DNA from: Burkholderia ubonensis
GTDB lineage: Bacteria; Pseudomonadota; Gammaproteobacteria; Burkholderiales; Burkholderiaceae
DNA: 64,000 nt
Direction of reading: 5' to 3'
Assembly (NCBI RefSeq): GCF_001718695.1
Contig: NZ_CP013422.1
Location: forward strand, 1,984,001-2,048,000
Both the position numbers and the translations under genes were made by a program. Positions 20,477 to 31,160 of the stretch are shown piece after piece; the stretch's first letter is position 1, and every line of letters starts with the position of its first letter. The notes beneath the pieces are model-generated. The model was given only the letters and a program-made list of their open reading frames with translations. It did not search any database and was not told where the DNA came from.

Positions 20477-20559
20477 GGGGTGAGGTGGATAGATAGCGTT
20501 GGATCGATTGAATCGGAGCCGCCACGACCGGTCGGCCACCACGTTCGCGGGACCCAGTA

Positions 20560-21123
20560 CTATTCGTCAAGCAACTGCAAGATCCTGTTGAGCAAATGAA
20601 GTTGCTGCCCATACAACACTGAAGCCGTTCCACCGCGAGCATGGCCAGATGACTTCGATTCGATTCGCCGTATCGACTCCGCCGTCAGGCTGCGTATCGC
20701 GTTGATGCGTTTGTATGCATTCGCGCAGCTGCGATCGGCACCGAGATACCATTCGTAGACCAAATCCAACTCCTTACGCAGCTCATCCTGGTTCAGTCTG
20801 TCGTAGCTCACCGTGAGCGCAGTCGCATTCATCGAAAGCAAAGCGCCCGCGTCAGCCGTAGCGGTAAGTGTCTTCTCATCAAGCTCAAGGTAAATCGGCT
20901 TGGTGTACTGGCGGTCGCGAAAAAACTCGACGCAAGTCGAGACATTGCGCAGCCCTTCAAGGGATATCTGCAGGACTTGCTCGTTGCGCGGAGACGTCGG
21001 ATGAAAGTCATGTACAAAACGAAGCTGCAACGCCGAGCCGGCGTGCTCGCATTGAGTGACGTACATGTCTTCAGCTGGTATAGCGATATTGACTTTTAAT
21101 GACCCTGAATCAGAATTAGTCAC
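20560..21123 (-). CDS. Uncharacterised protein at the edge of the accessory region
   Basis: An open frame of 187 residues. I do not recognise a family. It is mixed alpha/beta, with no signal peptide or membrane segment, and has lower G+C than the core genes on its left. The frame opens with GTG at 21123, directly abutting the remnant of an IS3-type transposase, with no convincing ribosome-binding site. A later ATG at 21066 (DMYVTQCEH) is possible. Its native 5' end may have been replaced by the IS. Confidence 0.5.
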   Translation of the reverse strand: MTNSDSGSLKVNIAIPAEDMYVTQCEHAGSALQLRFVHDFHPTSPRNEQVLQISLEGLRNVSTCVEFFRDRQYTKPIYLELDEKTLTATADAGALLSMNATALTVSYDRLNQDELRKELDLVYEWYLGADRSCANAYKRINAIRSLTAESIRRIESKSSGHARGGTASVLYGQQLHLLNRILQLLDE

Positions 21124-21129
21124 GACCGG

Positions 21130-21700
21130 AAGCGGATATTTTCAGCGTGGTTGAGTTGTCAGGCGAGTCGGATTTCCTTTCCAGACGGCCGAATTCGGTG
21201 GATGTCATCCACGGCAATGCGAGTGGGGATGAGCCTCGTTATAGTACGTGCGCCAATCACTTATTTTGCTGCGCGCCCGCCAATGACAAGAGCCGATGCG
21301 CATTCAGACCTTCCTGACGGAAGCGCCCGTTGAAGCTTTCGACCTTGACGTTTTCAGTTGGCGTGCCCGGCAGCCTGAAATCCAGTTCAATGCCAGGTTC
21401 ATACGCACACCAGTCCACCACCTTTGAGATGAACTCGTTGCCATTGTCAACTTTGGTGGTGGCAGGGTACCCGCGCGTGGCAGTAATACGCGCCAACACT
21501 TCGACCACATGCTGCACTTCAGACTTCGTCGGACCTCGATGGCCAGGCGTTCCCGTGTGCAGTTGTCGACGATGGTCGGAGCGCGAAGGCGTCGCCCATC
21601 GAACGCTATATCTACAACAAAATCCATGCTCCACTTTTGAACCGGACTATTTCTCGGATCAGGGTCAAGAATCACTTCTCTAGCAAGTTGCACAGCGCGC
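21130..21700 (-). pseudogene. IS3-family transposase OrfB remnant (frameshifted)
   Basis: Pieces of an IS3 OrfB (DDE integrase) occur in order but in different frames. On the minus strand they are WSMDFVVDIAFDGRRLRAPTI, then DNGNEFISKVVDWCAYEPGI and GTPTENVKVESFNGRFRQEGL, then SDWRTYYNEAHPHS, then LPWMTSTEFGRLE. At least two frameshifts and a stop break the reading, and the N-terminal OrfA and first catalytic region are missing. It is a dead relic of an IS407-like element. It lies between the patatin gene and the unknown gene at 20560. Confidence 0.85.
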
Positions 21701-21737
21701 TTATAGGTTTTCTGGTGAGCACTTCGCCGCTAACCTT

Positions 21738-22814
21738 TCAGTAGCGGCGCAAGCGCGCCATCGAATCGGCAAGGCGCGCCTCATTTCCAATGTGTTGGGT
21801 CCGTTTCGCCTCCAATATCCTCTCCGACTCGCGCAGCATGCGCCGGGCTTCGCCGGCCCGCATAACGCGTTCGGCGCACGCGAGTGTGTCCTCGTAACCC
21901 TGTTCGACCCAAGACGGAATCCGCTTCGGATCGAAGCCGAGCAGATCGCGATGATCGAGCAGGCTCGGGTCACGCGATATCGCGCGCTGCGGACGAATTT
22001 CCAGTACGGTCGCTTGCGGCAACTCGCGGCGCGACCACGGCGAGTCGTCGGACAGATGCGAGACGATCAGCATGTTGCAGCCCGCGTCGAGCAGCGCCCC
22101 TGCAGGCGTGTTGCCCTGCATCTTGCGCCAACCGCCGATGCCACCATCGGAATAGCGCTCACCGTTGACCGTTTTCGCCGCGTAGATCGCCGGAATCGCG
22201 GCGGAGGCGAGCAATGCGGCCTTCTGCTCCGCCTCCGGCAAGCCTTGCACGTGCACGTAGGTTGATGCTGGCGTGTCCTCGATCCCTACTTCTGCGGCGG
22301 CGATGCGAAGCAGGTCGTCGAAGGGGGTCTGCGAGCGGAACAGCGAAACGTACAGTGGCAAGCCGGCGTTCAGCGCTGCCGGATCGAGATACTCGTCCAT
22401 CAACGCCTTGAGCGGCTTGTCGCTCGCAAGGCCATTTGCCAGCATGTCGAGCGACTTCGGCAGAGTGACGTCCAGCATTGCGGCGGCAACGCGAGCCGCC
22501 TTGAGTACACGACCAAGCGCGCGGGTGGGCGCCAGCACGGCACCAGCAGAGGACAGGAGCGTGAGGTAGCCAAAAGCCTGAAACTCCACCGGCGATGTCT
22601 GCGCGAGCCGGTCCCAAAGCAGGGCGAGGTGCGCATGCGCCTTCTGCGGAGTGACAGCCGACGCCACGATCGCACCATTGAGCGCGCCGATGCTCGCGCC
22701 CGCAACCATGTCGATCTGCGCGCCGACCTCCGCTAGCGCACGCATGACACCGACCTGATAGGCACCCTTCGCGCCCCCGCCCGAGAGCACCAGACCTACC
22801 TTCAGTTCATCCAC
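21738..22814 (-). CDS. Patatin-like phospholipase, third gene of the dynamin operon
   Basis: A 358-residue patatin-family lipid acyl hydrolase. The oxyanion motif LVLSGGGAKGAYQVG is near the N-terminus. The nucleophile elbow GASIGA carries the catalytic Ser, and the dyad Asp lies in YSDGGIGG. It uses a Ser-Asp dyad to cleave membrane phospholipids. The start is GTG at 22814 (VDELKVGLVL) with GGAGG 8 bases upstream. It overlaps the RdcB-like gene's stop by 8 bases (GTGGATGA), so translation is probably coupled. A start at 22874 would add a non-conserved tail. No signal peptide is present, so it is cytoplasmic or membrane-peripheral. Confidence 0.88.
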   Translation of the reverse strand: MDELKVGLVLSGGGAKGAYQVGVMRALAEVGAQIDMVAGASIGALNGAIVASAVTPQKAHAHLALLWDRLAQTSPVEFQAFGYLTLLSSAGAVLAPTRALGRVLKAARVAAAMLDVTLPKSLDMLANGLASDKPLKALMDEYLDPAALNAGLPLYVSLFRSQTPFDDLLRIAAAEVGIEDTPASTYVHVQGLPEAEQKAALLASAAIPAIYAAKTVNGERYSDGGIGGWRKMQGNTPAGALLDAGCNMLIVSHLSDDSPWSRRELPQATVLEIRPQRAISRDPSLLDHRDLLGFDPKRIPSWVEQGYEDTLACAERVMRAGEARRMLRESERILEAKRTQHIGNEARLADSMARLRRY

Positions 22815-23709
22815 GTATAGCCCCTCCGAAAAGTTCACGCACCAAGGCCTCGCCGATGCGCCGCGGCGTGGCACGCAATGGCATTTCGAGCGGCAGGCGG
22901 GTGGGAGTCTGCGAGACGGAGAATGCGACCGGAGCGCGCGCCGGGTTCAGCGTAGCGCCGAGATACGAGAGTGCCGCCGCGCCGTCCCGCTGCTCTGCAG
23001 TGCTGCCCGCCGCGAGCCACCACGACGTATCGATCCGCTCGCTCGTCGCACATCGCGCGTCGTCAGCGAGTTGCGCCGTCACGCGGTTCATCGCGTCCTC
23101 GACGAATGCATGGCGCTGCGGTCCCTCCTGATAGCGGCAATAGTCGCCGAACGCGCCCCACCACAGGCATTCGAGCGCCGCATAGGCTCGGCCCGCCGGC
23201 GAAAGGCCAGCGAAACGGCCGGCACGCCAGCGGTTGAACACCTGGTCCAGATTCAACTGCACGCGCTGAATGAAGTCCACGCGCGCCAGATCGTCAGCCA
23301 GCGCGTCAAGCCGCTTTTCCAGGCGCAACGTACTCGCCAGCAGTTCGTTCTTGACACTCATCGAGAAGTCCGCCACATCCGCGACGTCGAGCATCATGCG
23401 GTTGACCGTGTCATGCACGAGGCCGACCGCAAGATTGCTCTGGGTGACAGATTCGGTAAGCTCCGTCAACCATTGCAGTGTCACCTCGAGACCTTCGGCG
23501 AAATTCTGGTTCAGGGCACCTTGGCGCTCGGCGCTGCGGCCCGTGAATCCCTCCCAGCAGCGAGAAAAGAATCCGTTGCGGCTGAACTGACCGGCCAGTC
23601 GCCCCTTGGACTCCGCCACGCAATTGGCGAAGTCGACCACCAACTTCTCGGGCAGACAGGTCAGCGTCTTGCAGACCGCCGACTCCGCACTGATGGGCGC
23701 TTCGCTCAT
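22807..23709 (-). CDS. RdcB-like (YjcZ-type) partner protein of the dynamin GTPase
   Basis: A 300-residue, mostly helical soluble protein. The opening (LPEKLVVDFANCV, FSRNGFFSRCWEGFTGRSAERQ) and the repeated TLQWLTELTES/SNLAVGLV pattern resemble the diguanylate-cyclase-regulator RdcB family (E. coli YjcZ), recognised from memory. In E. coli the YjdA GTPase and YjcZ together activate diguanylate cyclase DgcE. Its ATG overlaps the dynamin gene's stop as ATGA (23709-23706), and its own stop overlaps the patatin start, so three products are made as a coupled set. Confidence 0.7.
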   Translation of the reverse strand: MSEAPISAESAVCKTLTCLPEKLVVDFANCVAESKGRLAGQFSRNGFFSRCWEGFTGRSAERQGALNQNFAEGLEVTLQWLTELTESVTQSNLAVGLVHDTVNRMMLDVADVADFSMSVKNELLASTLRLEKRLDALADDLARVDFIQRVQLNLDQVFNRWRAGRFAGLSPAGRAYAALECLWWGAFGDYCRYQEGPQRHAFVEDAMNRVTAQLADDARCATSERIDTSWWLAAGSTAEQRDGAAALSYLGATLNPARAPVAFSVSQTPTRLPLEMPLRATPRRIGEALVRELFGGAIRG

Positions 23710-26156
23710 GCCTGCTCTTCCAGAGCATCCGACAGCCAGTGCTGCGTTTCGCGATACAGCTCCTCGCTGTCCTCGCGTGCGGCTGGCACGTTCCGCATCA
23801 ACAGGACCAGATCTTCGATCAATCGGTCCTTCTCCGCCTTGCTGCGCTGCTGATCGCGCTCGCTCTGCATCAGAGTGCCACGAATCTTCTGGACTTCGTC
23901 CTTGAACGCAGCGAAGAATTTGTCAGTGGCCATGGTAACCGGCTCCTTGACCGATTCGTGGATACGCGCCGCGAGACCATTGAAGCTGTCCTTGATACGC
24001 TCGCCGACCATACCCTTCACTGTTTTGAGGCTGATCTCCGCGTATTCGACCGAAACGCTATAGTCTTCCCAACCCCAATCGCTCGTGTTGAACCAGCTGC
24101 AGACGGTGCCCCACGCGCCGGACGAACGCCGCTGGCGCGTAACTCGGCGCGTCTTGTGCTGGATAGCGTCGGCCAGCATCTCTCCGCTCGAAAACTCGAT
24201 GGTGTCGAGCGCGATCATCGGAATTTCCAGCTTCACCACGAAACCGTCGTCGCCGAGGCGCTTGTTGATGTCACCGATAATCATATGAGCCGGTGCCTCG
24301 ACGTGGTCGGAAAAGCGCTTCTTGAAATCCTCGATTAGTTGCATCAGATCGTCCTGCATGTCTTGTTCAGCATGCGCCATGACTTCTTCCACGCGCGCGC
24401 GGATGGTCTCCATCAACTCCTGCGCCTTGCTCGCGTCGTCGAACTGGATCGTCTCCTTGTCTGGATTGAAGTCAGTATTCCCACCGCGATCGGACTCAAA
24501 CCCCAACATTGCCCTGAACCAGTTGCGTGTGGCCGGCTTCGCCTCCTCCGGCGCACGGGCGGGCTGCATCAGCCTGTTACGTGCCCGCCGCGCACGCGGC
24601 CCGCGTGCTTCGGCCTCCTCGCGCTCGGCCATCTTGCCTTCCTGGAAGTACTTTTCGATAACTGCTCCGACGTCCTTCTCGCTCATGATGAATCGCTCGT
24701 CGACCGTGCCAGCCATATTGGCCAGTGCATCATCCGTCGCCTTTTGTGCGTTCTGTTCGAGCTTCCCGATCTTTTCGATGTCCTCGACGATGGCGTTGAT
24801 CTGCGCGTGCAACTTCTCCGCGTCCTGCGCAAGGCCGGTCTTCCGAATGTCGAGGAAGTTCGAGACGTCGCCAGTTAGCTTGATCAGCTTCTGCGAGGCC
24901 GAGTCGATCGCCAGCGCAGCCGCGCGCGCGTGCGCGTATTCAATCACGTCCGTGAGCAAGGTTTGGAAATTCGACTTCTTCCAGAGCTTTTCAGCGGCGC
25001 TCTCAACCTTTTCGGAATCCGCCAAGTCGTCTTCGTCCCAACTGCTGCCCATTGCCTCGGTGGCGAAGTCCTCGACCCAGCCCTCCTTCTTATGGTCCGG
25101 CAAGCGGCCCTTGGCGACCAGTTCGGTTCGCGCGCGGTTCGCCAGATAGCCCCGCTTCGAGGAAACCGGGAACACGTCATCCAACCGCACCAACTCGGGC
25201 AGTAGCTTGCCGGCCACGAGCGCACGGACGTCGTCCTCGGTATCGCCGTTGCGGTCGCGCTGGTCGAACTTGTTCACGAGCGCATATGTGCGCGCGCCAT
25301 CGATATCCACCAGTTCCTTGCGCAGTTCGGCGTCAGCGTCGGACTTGAGCTGCGTGAAGTCGAGCACCGCAAGAATCGCCGATGCATTGCGCAACTGCTC
25401 GCGCAGCATCTTGCGCAGATGAGTTTGACCCGCCTCGTTCGGTCCCGGCGTATCGAGCAACGCGAGACGCCCCTGGAAGTCTGCCTTGCCGCGCAAGTGG
25501 CCGAACTCCACCTCAATCACGGGAATCGCTTCGATGCGGCTGTAGCTGCCGAACGGAAAGTCGATGCCGAATTCGCCGGCAAGACGCACGAGATCGTTCA
25601 AGCTTTTAAGAAAGCGGAATATCTCGTCAGCGCCTTCGTAACACTGCTGGAACTCGTCGCCGGTCTTCACGAATTGCAGCAGGGCCGTCATGTCCTTGTC
25701 ATCCTGCAGCCCTCGGATGGCCTCGCGATAGTCGGAATGCGCAGCCGCTTCGGCAAGCGTGTGCATCAACGTGTTGATCGGCCCCGTATGGTTGAGCCGC
25801 AGGACCGGCACGGCTTGGCCGGGCGTGTGGCGGATCAGCGTGGGCAGCGCGGTCATCGGGCGATTGCGGTTGGGCAGCACTTCCGCGCCAACTATTGCAT
25901 TAATCGTCGTGGACTTGCCGGCCTTCATAGTGCCGACTACGGCAAGCACCATTTCGAGCTGTTCCACCTTGCCTTGCTCGCTGTGCATTTCATCGATGCG
26001 AACGCGCGTCGATTCGAGGTCGAAGATTTGCGGCTCGTCGCGCTTCGGCTCCACGACAATGCCTCGGTTCCGTTCCATTGCCTCCAGCAGCTCGCCGCCG
26101 TACTGGAGCAAACGCGTAGCCTCTTCCCGAAGTGTTTCAATGTTCTTTTCGTGCAT
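23706..26156 (-). CDS. crfC: Dynamin-like GTPase, CrfC/RdcA (YjdA) family
   Basis: An 816-residue large GTPase. The G1 P-loop is GTMKAGKST (about 75-83), the G2 region NRPMTALPT follows, G3 is DTPGPNEAG (about 235-243) and G4 is NKFD (about 295-298). A long helical region with coiled coils follows, as in dynamins. The stretch around the P-loop (LEMVLAVVGTMKAGKSTTIN) and the ones around G3 closely follow E. coli CrfC/YjdA. The E. coli clamp-binding motif region is not conserved (PQIFDLES here). A TTG at 26180 is an alternative start; the ATG at 26156 fits the family start better, but neither has a strong ribosome-binding site. It is the first gene of a three-gene overlapping operon. Confidence 0.88.
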   Translation of the reverse strand: MHEKNIETLREEATRLLQYGGELLEAMERNRGIVVEPKRDEPQIFDLESTRVRIDEMHSEQGKVEQLEMVLAVVGTMKAGKSTTINAIVGAEVLPNRNRPMTALPTLIRHTPGQAVPVLRLNHTGPINTLMHTLAEAAAHSDYREAIRGLQDDKDMTALLQFVKTGDEFQQCYEGADEIFRFLKSLNDLVRLAGEFGIDFPFGSYSRIEAIPVIEVEFGHLRGKADFQGRLALLDTPGPNEAGQTHLRKMLREQLRNASAILAVLDFTQLKSDADAELRKELVDIDGARTYALVNKFDQRDRNGDTEDDVRALVAGKLLPELVRLDDVFPVSSKRGYLANRARTELVAKGRLPDHKKEGWVEDFATEAMGSSWDEDDLADSEKVESAAEKLWKKSNFQTLLTDVIEYAHARAAALAIDSASQKLIKLTGDVSNFLDIRKTGLAQDAEKLHAQINAIVEDIEKIGKLEQNAQKATDDALANMAGTVDERFIMSEKDVGAVIEKYFQEGKMAEREEAEARGPRARRARNRLMQPARAPEEAKPATRNWFRAMLGFESDRGGNTDFNPDKETIQFDDASKAQELMETIRARVEEVMAHAEQDMQDDLMQLIEDFKKRFSDHVEAPAHMIIGDINKRLGDDGFVVKLEIPMIALDTIEFSSGEMLADAIQHKTRRVTRQRRSSGAWGTVCSWFNTSDWGWEDYSVSVEYAEISLKTVKGMVGERIKDSFNGLAARIHESVKEPVTMATDKFFAAFKDEVQKIRGTLMQSERDQQRSKAEKDRLIEDLVLLMRNVPAAREDSEELYRETQHWLSDALEEQA

Positions 26157-27273
26157 ATCCGTGGCGATGGTTATAGGCAACAGTGAAATGGAATGCCTGC
26201 ATTGCGCTCTTCCGCTCGATGCCTGTGGGCTCTTATTTCGGCGATGTCGTCGCCCGTGCTCGAATCCGAAGAACGGCCGACTGCTTTTTATTACATTTCG
26301 CGTTTACGGACAATAAAGAAAAAACTTGAGTATCTGAGAAAGCAACCAAGTGAATTTTTTCGATATAGCGGCTGACCAGCAAACCGATGCACAGAGCGTC
26401 ATCAACGGCGTCCGCCGTGAGCCGAGAGCCGTGAGCACAAAGTACCGCTTCACCTCTAAACCGACCGTTGGTTTGGGCATCACAGATGGTCCATTCCGTA
26501 TCGGATTGCGTCCGTCAAAAAAGGAGCACACTGAATTTACGTCCGGTTGAGAGGGAATTGTTACAAAATCAGTAAATGTCGCCATTAGAGCCCGCGTGCC
26601 ACGGAACAAGGGCAAGCTCACCGGGGCAGAAGCCGCCGCTAAAGCTCTGCAAAATGGGCGCGAGCCGGACCGGACTGCAGATGGCGTCGAACCCTCGCGG
26701 ACTCGCGCCGTTCAATCTCGCGATTGGTAGCAGTCTCGGAGCGGGTGATCTTACGTGGTTGCTGGTTCAGGATGTCCGCGAGGGAAACCACGTGGCATCC
26801 AGAGCGACATCATGCAGCAGAAAGCCAAGCGGCCAGTGCAACTGGAGACCACAGAACAGACCCGCGAGAACCTCGAAGCGTGAATCGGAGCGCGAGGTTT
26901 GATGGCCGCGGGATTTTCTGTTCCGGAGCTCGTTGCATATGTCACTTCATCTATCAACGCGGCAATACGTCCGGCCGGTACATCGCTGGGTTGCATCAAC
27001 CGGCCTTGACGACGCCGCATACGGAACCACACGATACGCCGCACAACGGCTTCACTGACCTACCGGCCAACGAAGAACCTTACGGCGACGCAGTTGCTGC
27101 TCGGACAACGTCCCCAACACCAAAGCCGCCCCCCAAGCCCTGACTACCACCCGCCACAGGCCGTCCGACGAGAGCACAAACGACGCCTCTTCCCCACGAC
27201 GAACCGCACGACGCGATTCGAGGGTTTTCTATAAACTAAGCCCTCCCTTGAATCTTCGACCACCGACTTCGTC
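26157..27273. other. Large non-coding or degraded interval in the accessory region
   Basis: About 1.1 kb without a supportable gene. Short open frames on both strands (for example 26304-26621 minus and 26576-26902 plus) show no family resemblance, no ribosome-binding sites and no consistent codon bias. The first 150 bases presumably carry the dynamin operon promoter. The last 60 carry the leader of the GlxA-type regulator. The rest looks like eroded insertion DNA. Confidence 0.55.
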
Positions 27274-28295: not shown

Positions 28296-28303
28296 GGGTA
28301 GCG
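28296..28303. repeat. IS256 target-site duplication, left copy
   Basis: GGGTAGCG immediately precedes the left inverted repeat and is repeated exactly at 31205-31212 after the right end. An 8-bp duplication is what IS256-family transposition generates. Confidence 0.85.
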
Positions 28304-28331
28304 GGACCTATCCGTGATTTCGTGGGCGGGG
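28304..28331 (+). repeat. IS256 left inverted repeat
   Basis: The sequence starts GGACCTATCCGTGATTTC and pairs with the right end GAACCTGTCCGCATTTTT read on the minus strand. Both then share GTGGGCG. Confidence 0.82.
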
Positions 28332-28353
28332 CATATCATGAGGTGTAAAAGTC

Positions 28354-29427
28354 ATGGATATGCCAATGAAGAAGAAAAGGCAAACTGTAGCGCGTCAGGC
28401 AGCGGCCCGCGGGCCGCTGCCTGAACTGCCCAAGGAACTGCTGGACCAGTTGGTCAAGGGGCCGATGACGCCGGCCGAGGTTCAGGACCTGATGCTGGCG
28501 TTCAACAAGGCAGTCATCGAGCGCGCGATGGGCGCCGAGATGAATCTGCATTTGGGCTACCGACCAGGCCAGTCCAAGCCGCCCGGTCAGGCCAACGAGC
28601 GCAATGGCGCCAGCGGCAAGACGGTCATCACCGATCGTGGCCCGGTTCGGGTCGAAGTCCCCCGCGATCGCGACGGCAGCTTCGAGCCGATCCTGATTCC
28701 CAAGCACGAGCGCCGCTTCACCGGCTTCGACGAACGCATCATCGCGATGTACGCTCGCGGCATGAGTGTGCGCGAGATTCAGGCCTTTCTGGCCGAGAGT
28801 TACGGCACCGAGGTATCTCCCGATTTCATCAGCTCGGTCACCGACGAGGTGATGGCCGAAGCGCTGACTTGGCAGAGCCGCCCGCTCGAAACGATGTATC
28901 CGGTGGTGTTCTTCGATGCCCTGCGGGTCAAGATCCGTGACGATGGTGTGGTCAGCAACAAAGCCGTCTATCTGGCCCTGGGCATCCAGGCCGACGGCCA
29001 GCGCGACGTGCTGGGCCTCTGGATCGAGCAGACCGAGGGCGCCAAGTTCTGGCTCAAGGTGTTCAACGAACTCAAGACGCGTGGCTGTCAGGACATCCTG
29101 ATCGCCGTGGTCGATGGCCTGAAGGGGCTGGCCGAGGCCATCAGCGCAGCCTATCCCCGCACGACCGTTCAGACCTGCATCGTGCATCTGATCCGCAACA
29201 GTCTCGAGTACGCCAGCTACAAGGACCGTAAGGCGCTCGCCGCAGCGCTGCGCCCGATCTACGCGGCCGCCAGCGAGGAGGCGGCAAGGCAGGCACTGCA
29301 AGACTTCGCTGACGGCCCTTGGGGCGCGAAGTACCCGACCATCGTGCAGTCGTGGCAGCGTGCATGGGAGCACGTCATACCGTTCTTCGTGTTTCCGCCG
29401 GAGATTCGACGAGTTGTCTACACAACG
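28354..29427 (+). pseudogene. IS256 transposase, 5' fragment
   Basis: The first 358 codons of a mutator-type (MULE/IS256) DDE transposase. The segments VVFFDALRVKIRDDG and IAVVDGLKGLAEAI carry catalytic Asp residues, and TCIVHLIRNSLEYASYKD is the family signature. The frame is intact up to ACG at 29425-29427, where the IS110 element interrupts RRVVYTT|NAIESLN. Read-through continues 37 codons into the IS110 before a stop. Confidence 0.9.
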
Positions 29428-29467
29428 GATGAAATGCACAAGTCCCGCACCGCGCTTCGCTCGTTCG

Positions 29468-30703
29468 CTATGTTCGCGCCTGCGGCCACCGTATCGGCGC
29501 GCTGTCTGATTTGGGGCGCGACTGTTTCCACCGGTTAAACAGTCTCTGATAGGTTCGCTCAGACTGCTCGGCCACGGCTCGCTCTTGCTGACGCACACTC
29601 TTCAGACTGTAGGCCGCAGCCGAACCTTTGCGCGGGCCATGCTGCGCCGGCATTCCAGCCTGCAGTTCCAGCGCACGCAGTTTGTGCGCAGTCAACGCCG
29701 GGCGATCCCACGCGAACGGTTCACCGCGTGTCAGCACATACCATACGATTACTGCGAGTTTGCGAGCAGTCGCGACGGCGGCAATTTGCTGGCCGCGGCG
29801 ATCGCGCACGCGCAGGAAGAAGGCGCGCAGCGGCCCGGGCGCTTGCGTTGCACCCCAAGCGGCTTCGACCAGCATCGCCCGAGCATAAGAGCGCCCGCGC
29901 TTGGTGATGTGACCATGCCTGGCCGGTGCCGGACCGGATTGATAGACTGATGGATTGAGACCGAAGTAGCTCACCAACTTCTCCGGATTCGGAAACCGCG
30001 CGATGTCGCCGATGGCCGATAGCAGTCCGATCGCCACTGTGGTGTTCACGCCAGTGATCGTTAGCATCACGCGCAATCGCGCATCGTCGATGGTCGCTTG
30101 CGCGAGCGCTTGCTCCACCTCGCGCAGATCGTCGCCGAGGCGGTCCAGTTCGCGCAGTCGCTGCTCAACACCCAGTCGTTCATCCAGTGGCAGCGGTTGA
30201 ACACCGAGCCACGCACGCCCCTTCTTGCCAAAAAGATCGGTGGCGGGACACCGCTCGATCAGGTGTGCAATCAGGACTGCGTGAATCTCGTTCTTCAGCC
30301 GTGTACGTTGCCGCACCAGCTGTGAGCGGCGCGCGATCTGTCGACGCAACGCCAGCGTGTGCTCGTCCGGCATCCATACTTCCGGCAGAAAACCGCTCGC
30401 ATACAGCTGTGCCAGCACGGCTGCATCGATCTTGTCCGTCTTGACGCGAGCCTCCGCGATCAGCCTAACTTGCAGCGGATTGGCAATCGCCACACGCGCG
30501 ACATGCGCGCGCAAGACGTTGACGATGGCAGTGGTATTGCCGGTCGCTTCGAGTACCACATGATCGGTGGCACGCAGCTTTGCCGCAAAGCGCTCCAGTT
30601 CATCGCGTCGCAACCCGGTGCGGCCGCCTGCATGCAGCGTGCCATCCTCCAGGTACGCGATCTCGGCCACGGAGCGCGACACATCTAACCCTACGATTCG
30701 CAT
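29468..30703 (-). CDS. IS110-family transposase (DEDD recombinase)
   Basis: A 411-residue intact transposase. The RuvC-like N-terminal DEDD domain is visible: IVGLDVS (first Asp), VVLEATGN (Glu), then RVKTDKIDAAVLAQLY (two Asp). The C-terminal Tnp_20 domain with the catalytic Ser region holds HGHITKRGRSYARAMLVEAAW. The ATG at 30703 has GGGAGA upstream; a start at 30805 would lie in the non-coding end. This copy may be active. Confidence 0.92.
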   Translation of the reverse strand: MRIVGLDVSRSVAEIAYLEDGTLHAGGRTGLRRDELERFAAKLRATDHVVLEATGNTTAIVNVLRAHVARVAIANPLQVRLIAEARVKTDKIDAAVLAQLYASGFLPEVWMPDEHTLALRRQIARRSQLVRQRTRLKNEIHAVLIAHLIERCPATDLFGKKGRAWLGVQPLPLDERLGVEQRLRELDRLGDDLREVEQALAQATIDDARLRVMLTITGVNTTVAIGLLSAIGDIARFPNPEKLVSYFGLNPSVYQSGPAPARHGHITKRGRSYARAMLVEAAWGATQAPGPLRAFFLRVRDRRGQQIAAVATARKLAVIVWYVLTRGEPFAWDRPALTAHKLRALELQAGMPAQHGPRKGSAAAYSLKSVRQQERAVAEQSERTYQRLFNRWKQSRPKSDSAPIRWPQART

Positions 30704-30950
30704 AACCGTCTCCCGTTTCAGATCACTGTTGGGAGCCGGTGGGACAGCACGACAACTACGGATTCGCGCTCGCAGCGCAACCGGGCGGGTCGCAGGGGCG
30801 GCCAACTACTAACACGAGCTCGCGGCTCATCGTATAGGAACGGCCTGCCCACCCGAAGTGCTCCCCAGTGCCCCATGTCCCGGATGGTCACACCATACGC
30901 TCAAACCGCTCGGCGCGGGAACGCGAGGCACCGGCTATATCATGCCGGTT
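30704..30950 (-). ncRNA. Candidate IS110 bridge-RNA region (5' non-coding end)
   Basis: IS110-group elements encode a structured bridge RNA in the non-coding end upstream of the transposase. That RNA pairs with both the donor and the target DNA. Here the only long non-coding segment (247 bp) is 5' of the transposase, as in the IS110 (not IS1111) subgroup. The loops and guides have not been folded, so the exact RNA limits are unknown. Confidence 0.5.
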
Positions 30951-31160
30951 ACGAACGCCATTGAAAGTCTGAACATGCAGTTGCGCAAGATCATCAAGAC
31001 TCGTGGTCACTTCCCGAATGACGAGGCCGCGATCAAGCTGCTCTGGCTGGCGCTGCGCAACGTGCTGGCCAAGACCGTGCGGGCCGCCTTCGACTGGAAA
31101 TCAGCGATGAACCAGTTTGCTATCCTGTTTGGCGAGCGATTCACGCAGGCGCGCGGATAA
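30951..31160 (+). pseudogene. IS256 transposase, 3' fragment
   Basis: The last 69 residues of the same transposase (NAIESLNMQLRKIIKTRGHF onward), in the frame that joins exactly to the 5' fragment at ACG. The reconstructed protein is about 426 residues, which is full length. No mutation other than the IS110 insertion is needed to explain the split. Confidence 0.9.

Follow-up and report, generated by a model that had tools for sequence, protein, structure and literature searches.

In E. coli, the dynamin-like GTPase RdcA and its partner RdcB (YjdA-YjcZ, CrfC) act as a regulator of DgcE (PMC6510439). In the 64,000-nucleotide stretch of Burkholderia ubonensis DNA analysed here (the window), homologues of both are encoded together with a patatin-like phospholipase. 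Is the phospholipase a true component of this system, and does the resulting set act in c-di-GMP signalling, in defence or elsewhere at the membrane?

Organisation of the locus

The cassette (positions 21738-26156) consists of three intact, overlapping genes on the minus strand, dynamin, then RdcB, then patatin (Table 1). The overlapping operon described in the first-pass annotation was confirmed: its open reading frames are present, and the overlaps are ATGA at 23706-23709 (dynamin/rdcB junction) and GTGGATGA at 22807-22814 (rdcB/patatin junction). Both junctions were checked in 18 three-gene loci and each overlaps in 17, a count with a bias towards overlap in that the script preferred whichever start codon came closest to a 4-base overlap; given this frequency at each junction, we regard the gene overlap as more than chance. 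Transposase genes lie on both sides of the cassette, in agreement with the insertion sequence-marked setting noted earlier. When compared with PADLOC, the three cassette genes and a 187-aa ORF of the window gave weak matches only. Ten further window genes that were scanned were metabolic, transport, regulatory or unmatched, with no defence gene found close to the cassette, and none of the scanned window genes in its vicinity encoded a WYL regulator.

Table 1. Coordinates of the cassette, its genes and neighbouring features in the window
Feature	Position	Strand	Remarks
Dynamin gene (RdcA/CrfC-like GTPase)	23706..26156	-	816 aa, ATG start; first in cassette
Predicted dynamin tip (about residues 668-700)	24057..24155	-	Polybasic run then W-G-x-[VIL]-C; candidate membrane-binding element
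rdcB gene (RdcB/YjcZ-family)	22807..23709	-	300 aa; start overlaps dynamin stop
Patatin gene (patatin-like phospholipase)	21738..22814	-	358 aa, GTG start overlapping rdcB stop
Integrase-core transposase remnant	21257..21693	-	Internal stop; directly downstream of patatin gene; rve_3 34.9 bits on open piece 21257-21634
Mutator-type transposase gene	28354..29538		Flanks cassette on the other side from the integrase-core remnant
Segment carrying the cassette	20506..27136		Unmatched, among the matches listed, in a DNA scan of 64 other genomes of the genus

The three proteins

The dynamin matches Pfam Dynamin_N with 71.9 bits (cut-off 27), and its match to the NCBIfam CrfC model spans residues 1-798 with 615 bits against a cut-off of 1146; it is therefore CrfC-like but below the CrfC equivalog. 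Thus, of two features of an RdcA/RdcB pair, a YjcZ-family protein encoded directly after a CrfC-like dynamin is present in the window, while the CrfC equivalog score is not reached. As in other bacterial dynamin-like proteins, a GTPase domain with P-loop (GTMKAGKS at residue 75), G2 Thr (T102), DxxG (DTPG, 235) and NKxD (NKFD, 295) is combined with a long helical stalk, and the GTPase motifs are kept across 26 aligned dynamin sequences. The top PDB matches of its AF2 model (pLDDT 77.8) are SynDLP, BDLP and IniA, which are membrane-remodelling proteins. The predicted tip, modelled with strands at 666-677 and 696-709 (pLDDT 62-76 there), carries a polybasic W-G-x-x-C motif that is found in 17/17 three-gene dynamins vs 0/65 two-gene RdcA proteins; it was absent from both K-12 RdcA and the Nostoc dynamin when these were searched.

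RdcB matches Pfam YjcZ with 168.5 bits (cut-off 27) and is modelled as nearly all helix (AF2 pLDDT 83.9, pTM 0.85); between the three-gene and two-gene clades its N-terminal half is 24% and its C-terminal half 37% identical. The patatin (Pfam Patatin, PF01734, 103.4 bits, cut-off 27.7) has the oxyanion GGGxxG (G12GGAKG17), the GxSxG nucleophile (S41 in GASIG) and the catalytic DG(G/A) (D223GG) of patatin-like phospholipases, with G12-G14, S41 and D223-G225 invariant in 15/15 aligned proteins.

Linkage and co-inheritance

From a scan of named genomes 80 RdcB loci were kept, and a patatin gene is located directly downstream of RdcB in 14 of these, which span five families. The other 66 are all Enterobacteriaceae core loci and have patatin in none, with at least 3.2 kb of downstream sequence available at 62 and the remaining four ending too soon to tell. 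In a 45-protein tree of RdcB, the members linked to patatin make up one side of a single branch (support 100/100), such that the patatin label needs one change, and 0/500 shuffles gave a number as low. Moreover, the pairwise distances of dynamin, RdcB and patatin correlate at 0.92-0.95 (16 loci; 0/2000 permutations as high for each), which is a sign of joint inheritance of the three proteins and not of physical contact. Three pairs of copies, drawn from E. coli, K. oxytoca and E. albertii, gave dN/dS ratios between 0.10 and 0.25, a sign that these copies evolve under purifying selection. The triad (dynamin, YjcZ, patatin) is also found on a plasmid of Nostoc, where an integrase gene follows it.

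Dynamin, RdcB and patatin genes thus form one conserved three-gene cassette and their linkage is not incidental. The patatin gene, proposed in the first-pass annotation as a coupled third gene, is a real and conserved component, present at 14/14 loci of its clade; the accompanying proposal, that rarity of patatin genes beside RdcA/RdcB would speak against the linkage, had a divided outcome, as this clade stands against the 66 core loci. The E. coli RdcA/RdcB pair, whose members reportedly bind each other, shares with the cassette a homologous dynamin and RdcB, the gene order with a 4-base overlap and the GTPase motifs; it differs in having no patatin, in its chromosomal site before proP, in its place on the opposite side of the RdcB tree and in a dynamin without the polybasic W-G-x-x-C tip. 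In databases these proteins carry the name "diguanylate cyclase regulator RdcB family protein", which for the three-gene clade probably gives a wrong impression.

Distribution and genomic neighbourhoods

The cassette is rare in the genus of the window (YjcZ gene in 1/65 genomes) and common in E. coli, where RdcB-patatin DNA is present in 2466 of 5426 complete genomes at a cover of at least 80%; for comparison, core rdcB is present in 5356 of these 5426. It is also carried on plasmids of Klebsiella, Enterobacter and E. coli, and in MG1655 it is found neither at the CP4-44 island nor at rdcAB. This patchy distribution, together with island or plasmid carriage, suggests that the cassette has spread horizontally.

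The cassette recurs in distant bacteria, often adjoining anti-phage genes. With PADLOC at 1e-10, 84 ORFs around 14 three-gene loci match 138 families vs five for 141 ORFs around 14 two-gene loci; the family counts are inflated by several models matching one ORF, the 84 ORFs were hand-picked (the rule used for the control admits 98, of which 18 were left out), and the two-gene controls are core-genome loci, so the contrast in part shows only that the three-gene set is mobile. At least one known defence-gene neighbour is present at 10 of the 14 three-gene loci, while the remaining four (L016, L018, L021 and L022) have no clear defence neighbour among the ORFs scanned one by one. These neighbours include BrxC of BREX (L025), JukA-JukB (L028) and JukA (L024), restriction-modification methyltransferases of type I (L017) and type III (L026), and WYL regulators beside the cassette at L015, L017, L019 and L020 (the pooled scan gave seven WYL matches, three of which were not located). 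The Aliarcobacter copy has a Shedu gene at a distance of about 4.5 kb. CbeA/YeeU-type island genes are present in all seven E. coli-type contexts read, and these mark an accessory setting that is not specifically anti-phage.

Comparison with known defence systems

CapV-type patatin effectors belong to CBASS and resemble the cassette patatin in being patatin-like phospholipases in a defence-like setting. The cassette patatin, however, scores 24.7 bits against NCBIfam CBASS_lipase (cut-off 200), and CBASS was rejected: the cassette has no cyclase gene and no cyclase match was obtained among the four window proteins scanned. Control would instead come from a GTPase, not from a cyclic nucleotide. 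Eleos (LeoA/LeoBC, with a model in PADLOC) is a defence that involves a dynamin-family GTPase, and a weak LeoBC match covers residues 70-514; with only 26.4 bits for LeoBC and no LeoA match among the four window proteins, Eleos was also rejected, the cassette having RdcB and a phospholipase instead. WYL regulators adjoin the cassette at the four loci given above, as in BrxR/WYL-regulated defence islands (PMC9122601), although a WYL protein is no part of the cassette. The main text of DefensePredictor names no dynamin or patatin system.

Discussion

We consider the cassette to be mobile and likely to serve in defence against phages or mobile elements, with a dynamin-RdcB complex that would control a membrane-attacking patatin (probability roughly 0.55). 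The polybasic tip may place the dynamin on membranes, where the GTP-driven dynamin-RdcB complex would sense infection and then release the patatin for phospholipid digestion. RdcB would be the adaptor that couples dynamin to patatin, patatin binding being a candidate function, and lipid hydrolysis would stop the cell or the phage. The first-pass annotation thus stands with respect to the patatin and to an accessory, defence-like setting in many other loci (BREX, Juk, restriction-modification, WYL), albeit with no defence gene seen near the cassette in the window, and it is not supported in offering c-di-GMP control as the shared function.

That function would make the dynamin-RdcB pair an activator of a diguanylate cyclase, as in E. 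coli, with the patatin as an added output, and the clear RdcB and CrfC-family homology is in its favour. However, MASE1, for which an interaction with RdcA is published (PMC6510439), gave no match in the genome of the window (99.99% complete; the E. coli control was positive). MASE1 proteins are present in 14/14 sampled two-gene hosts and in 8/14 other three-gene hosts, where a cyclase target is possible, but are absent from the remaining 6/14. Since, in addition, the two forms are separated by one branch of the RdcB tree, differ in the dynamin tip and diverge more in the N-terminal half of RdcB, we find this explanation very improbable.

Resemblance of the dynamin model to SynDLP, BDLP and IniA, the polybasic tip and the general accessory nature of the E. 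coli islands with CbeA/YeeU would also suit stress-driven membrane remodelling or repair, where dynamin and RdcB would mark sites of membrane damage for the patatin to trim or recycle the lipids there, and defence genes are neighbours through shared island travel. We regard this as unlikely: WYL, BREX, Juk and restriction-modification genes recur beside the cassette in several bacterial families, and its patchy distribution in the genus fits defence better than housekeeping. Plasmid carriage, location on islands with CbeA/YeeU modules in the E. coli-type contexts read and the overlap of all three genes might finally indicate a toxin-antitoxin-like or addiction module, in which a toxic patatin is kept in check by dynamin-RdcB and the cassette helps its island or plasmid to persist. 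An 816-aa GTPase would be an unusual antitoxin and we hold this to be improbable; it is, however, hard to set apart from defence, as many modules of this type have anti-phage activity as well.

The tree, with weak support on this point, suggests that the two-gene RdcA/RdcB of Enterobacteriaceae may derive from a three-gene ancestor that lost its patatin and acquired a new role as the switch of DgcE. We propose, tentatively and at somewhat less than even odds, that the defence cassette represents a new type of immune effector, a dynamin-gated phospholipase found in cyanobacteria as well as in nearly half of the complete E. coli genomes, of which RdcA/RdcB would be a domesticated remnant without membrane-binding tip and patatin. 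If true, an immune cassette that attacks membranes has gone unrecognised in almost half of the complete E. coli genomes, and its absence from the two MG1655 sites would help to explain why it was overlooked. One bacterial defence would couple a dynamin to a phospholipase, both of them ancient membrane machines, and how a GTPase oddly came to regulate c-di-GMP would become testable as the re-use of a defence system for signalling.

The three-gene cassette of Burkholderia ubonensis

The first-pass annotation had proposed an overlapping operon of three genes in the window, and our analysis bears out both the order, i.e. dynamin, rdcB and patatin, and the overlaps of 4 and 8 bases (for coordinates see the table). 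The CrfC model of NCBIfam covers most of the dynamin (615 bits vs a cut-off of 1146), which has GTPase sequence motifs, and the motifs of the patatin include the serine-aspartate dyad. Third-position GC of the three genes (76-77%) falls between that of the left-hand permease gene (96%) and that of the right-hand AraC-type gene (60%). The approximately 6.6 kb cassette segment was unmatched in 64 other genomes of the genus, among the matches listed in a DNA scan, and only one of 65 genomes of the genus has a YjcZ gene; this host has probably acquired the segment recently. Nearby, a 187-aa ORF had neither a family match nor a relative among the loci compared, and a block with a Mutator transposase is present at two more places in the same genome and at three in a relative (G022).

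Coordinates of the cassette, nearby features and neighbours of the compared loci
Feature	Locus	Position	Strand	Remark
Dynamin gene	window	23706-26156	minus	Pfam Dynamin_N, well above cut-off
rdcB	window	22807-23709	minus	Pfam YjcZ, well above cut-off
Patatin gene	window	21738-22814	minus	Pfam Patatin, well above cut-off
187-aa ORF	window	20560-21123	minus	low GC (52.7%)
Mutator transposase block	window	28303-31000		2.7 kb
Shortened dynamin ORF	L005	8826-9971		Klebsiella plasmid
Stretch with patatin, RdcB piece, integrase and Shedu genes	L112	832-9408		Aliarcobacter cryaerophilus plasmid
Four-gene cluster	L024	700-7462		Erwiniaceae
Four-gene cluster	L027	899-7608		Erwiniaceae
Four-gene cluster	L028	691-7453		Erwiniaceae
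470-aa protein	L016	6039-7451		Pseudomonas
470-aa protein	L018	6039-7451		Pseudomonas
BrxC	L025			cassette neighbour
JukA + JukB	L028			cassette neighbours
JukA	L024			cassette neighbour
Type I methyltransferase	L017			cassette neighbour
Type III methyltransferase	L026			cassette neighbour
HEC-06/SspE-like pair	L020			cassette neighbours
WYL regulators	L015, L017, L019, L020			cassette neighbours
SNF2-type helicase	L028			cassette neighbour; relatives in L024, L027
mad2-like + Fic-like matches	L023			cassette neighbours

Linkage of patatin to RdcB

The RdcB scan covered one genome per species (84,980 species) with a single peptide pattern, and 80 of the 90 relatives were analysed. A homologous patatin ORF directly follows rdcB in 14 loci (L015-L028), which belong to Pseudomonadaceae (6), Erwiniaceae (4), Chromatiaceae (2), Alcaligenaceae (1) and Enterobacteriaceae (1, Escherichia albertii). 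In the other 66 (L029-L094), without exception from Enterobacteriaceae, dynamin and RdcB are present and patatin was not found; four of these (L040, L076, L081 and L085) stop <320 bases past rdcB and are uninformative on patatin, and the remaining 62 extend at least 3.2 kb downstream. The RdcB proteins of the two kinds of loci are separated by a single branch (support 100/100; tree of 45 proteins) with all 14 patatin-linked loci on one side; the search for adjoining RdcB and patatin genes suggested in the first-pass annotation has a split outcome, with patatin in one clade and none found in the other. The linkage is real and clade-specific.

Overlaps occur at each of the two junctions in 17 of 18 three-gene loci, the junction script favouring whichever start codon came closest to giving a 4-base overlap. 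Dynamin, RdcB and patatin diverge in step: over 16 loci their pairwise distances show correlations of 0.92 to 0.95 (0/2000 permutations as high), as would be expected for jointly inherited genes. Three pairs among the E. coli, Klebsiella oxytoca and E. albertii copies gave dN/dS values of 0.24-0.25 (dynamin), 0.10 (RdcB) and 0.13 (patatin), and the patatin catalytic residues are unchanged in 15/15 proteins; judged from these sequence comparisons the cassette is under selection.

Distribution and mobility

The cassette is widespread and mobile. Of 5426 complete E. coli genomes searched with an E. coli copy, 2583 contain RdcB-patatin DNA (2466 of them at 80% cover or more), at places of which 3362/3363 are chromosomal, and 2470 contain the dynamin part (2416 at 80% cover); core rdcB is present in 5364. 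Downstream of the cassette a CbeA/YeeU gene is present in all seven E. coli-type contexts examined (six E. coli records and one Klebsiella oxytoca plasmid), together with a DUF932 gene in six and a DUF945 gene at that place in one. In MG1655 CP4-44 contains flu-yeeR-yeeS, and no patatin follows rdcA-rdcB. Another cassette lineage resides on Klebsiella, Enterobacter and E. coli plasmids; on one Klebsiella plasmid the dynamin ORF is shortened beside an IS5-like element while the rdcB and patatin ORFs are full length.

A plasmid of Nostoc sp. MS1 (L111) carries dynamin, YjcZ (45.6 bits, cut-off 27) and patatin, with an integrase gene on the opposite strand. Cyanobacteria have a large YjcZ branch: the Nostoc protein has 191 relatives, and all named organisms, a minority of the 120 listed, are cyanobacteria. 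On the Aliarcobacter plasmid patatin adjoins an RdcB piece, no dynamin was recognised at the locus, and genes for a site-specific integrase and a Shedu nuclease lie ~1.2 kb on and ~4.5 kb away, respectively. Phage records and viral contigs yielded no RdcB. Two genomes of the phylum (L013, L014) gave weak, sub-threshold YjcZ matches, possibly distant RdcB relatives or chance.

Defence genes near the cassette

We compared 84 hand-picked ORFs near 14 cassettes (80 of the 98 meeting the control rule, i.e. at least 115 aa and at most 5.5 kb away, plus four shorter) with 141 script-picked ORFs around 14 two-gene loci. At E 1e-10 these matched 138 and 5 PADLOC (defence-system model) families, respectively, totals that do not equal numbers of systems because the families overlap; the commonest control matches were mad3 and mad8 (ten ORFs each). 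At least one defence-type neighbour of the kinds tabulated is present at 10 of 14 three-gene loci. At L016 the sole match is to mad3, a kind that control ORFs also gave; no defence-type neighbour turned up at L018, L021 or L022 among the singly scanned ORFs (40 of the 84). WYL-domain regulators are known beside defence systems (PMC9122601). The cassette neighbourhood is defence-like. The first-pass annotation had leaned towards defence from the setting, and a defence-like setting holds at many of the other loci but not in the window, where the genes scanned included no such neighbour.

The conserved Erwiniaceae four-gene cluster, with the helicase gene last, lies directly upstream of the dynamin gene and may be a separate defence system. 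In Pseudomonas, related 470-aa proteins are encoded just before the dynamin gene; the L016 protein had no match in Pfam or PADLOC.

Comparison with the RdcA/RdcB switch

In the predicted structure of the window dynamin (mean pLDDT 77.8, 62-76 around the tip) the GTPase is accompanied by long helices and, at residues 666-709, by a pair of strands; among solved structures SynDLP, BDLP and IniA come closest. Comparable tips of other dynamins contact the membrane. Three-gene dynamins differ here from two-gene RdcA: all 17 have W-G-x-[VIL]-C at the tip, preceded by 4 to 8 lysines/arginines per 13 residues, whereas none of 65 RdcA has the motif and 0 to 3 basic residues occupy that place. The Nostoc dynamin lacks the motif.

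According to PMC6510439, RdcA is reportedly soluble and in E. coli binds the MASE1 domain of DgcE, RdcA being bound by RdcB. MASE1 was found in 14/14 two-gene hosts vs 8/14 three-gene hosts (28 other hosts, genome completeness not given), and the genome of the window has none. On these grounds we consider an E. coli-type c-di-GMP switch unlikely to be at work, and the c-di-GMP-controlled membrane remodelling offered as one option in the first-pass annotation would lack, in the genome of the window, the domain that RdcA binds in E. coli. Between the clades RdcB identity is 24% in the N-terminal and 37% in the C-terminal half, which would fit a shared dynamin-binding half joined to a clade-specific half. 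Under the model proposed below, the two-gene regulator is most plausibly a derived, patatin-less form, and rooting with Nostoc points weakly the same way (91/67, long branch).

Proposed function

Each part of the cassette is of a known kind. We found no description of the triad as one system in the literature searched, and within that scope the novelty lies in the combination of the parts, in how widely it has spread and in its link to RdcA/RdcB. Around the observed gene set, conservation and context we propose a model of sensing, coupling and lipid attack: the dynamin would assemble at the membrane and be coupled to the patatin through RdcB, infection would alter its GTP state and release the phospholipase activity, and this activity may then disable the cell or the phage.
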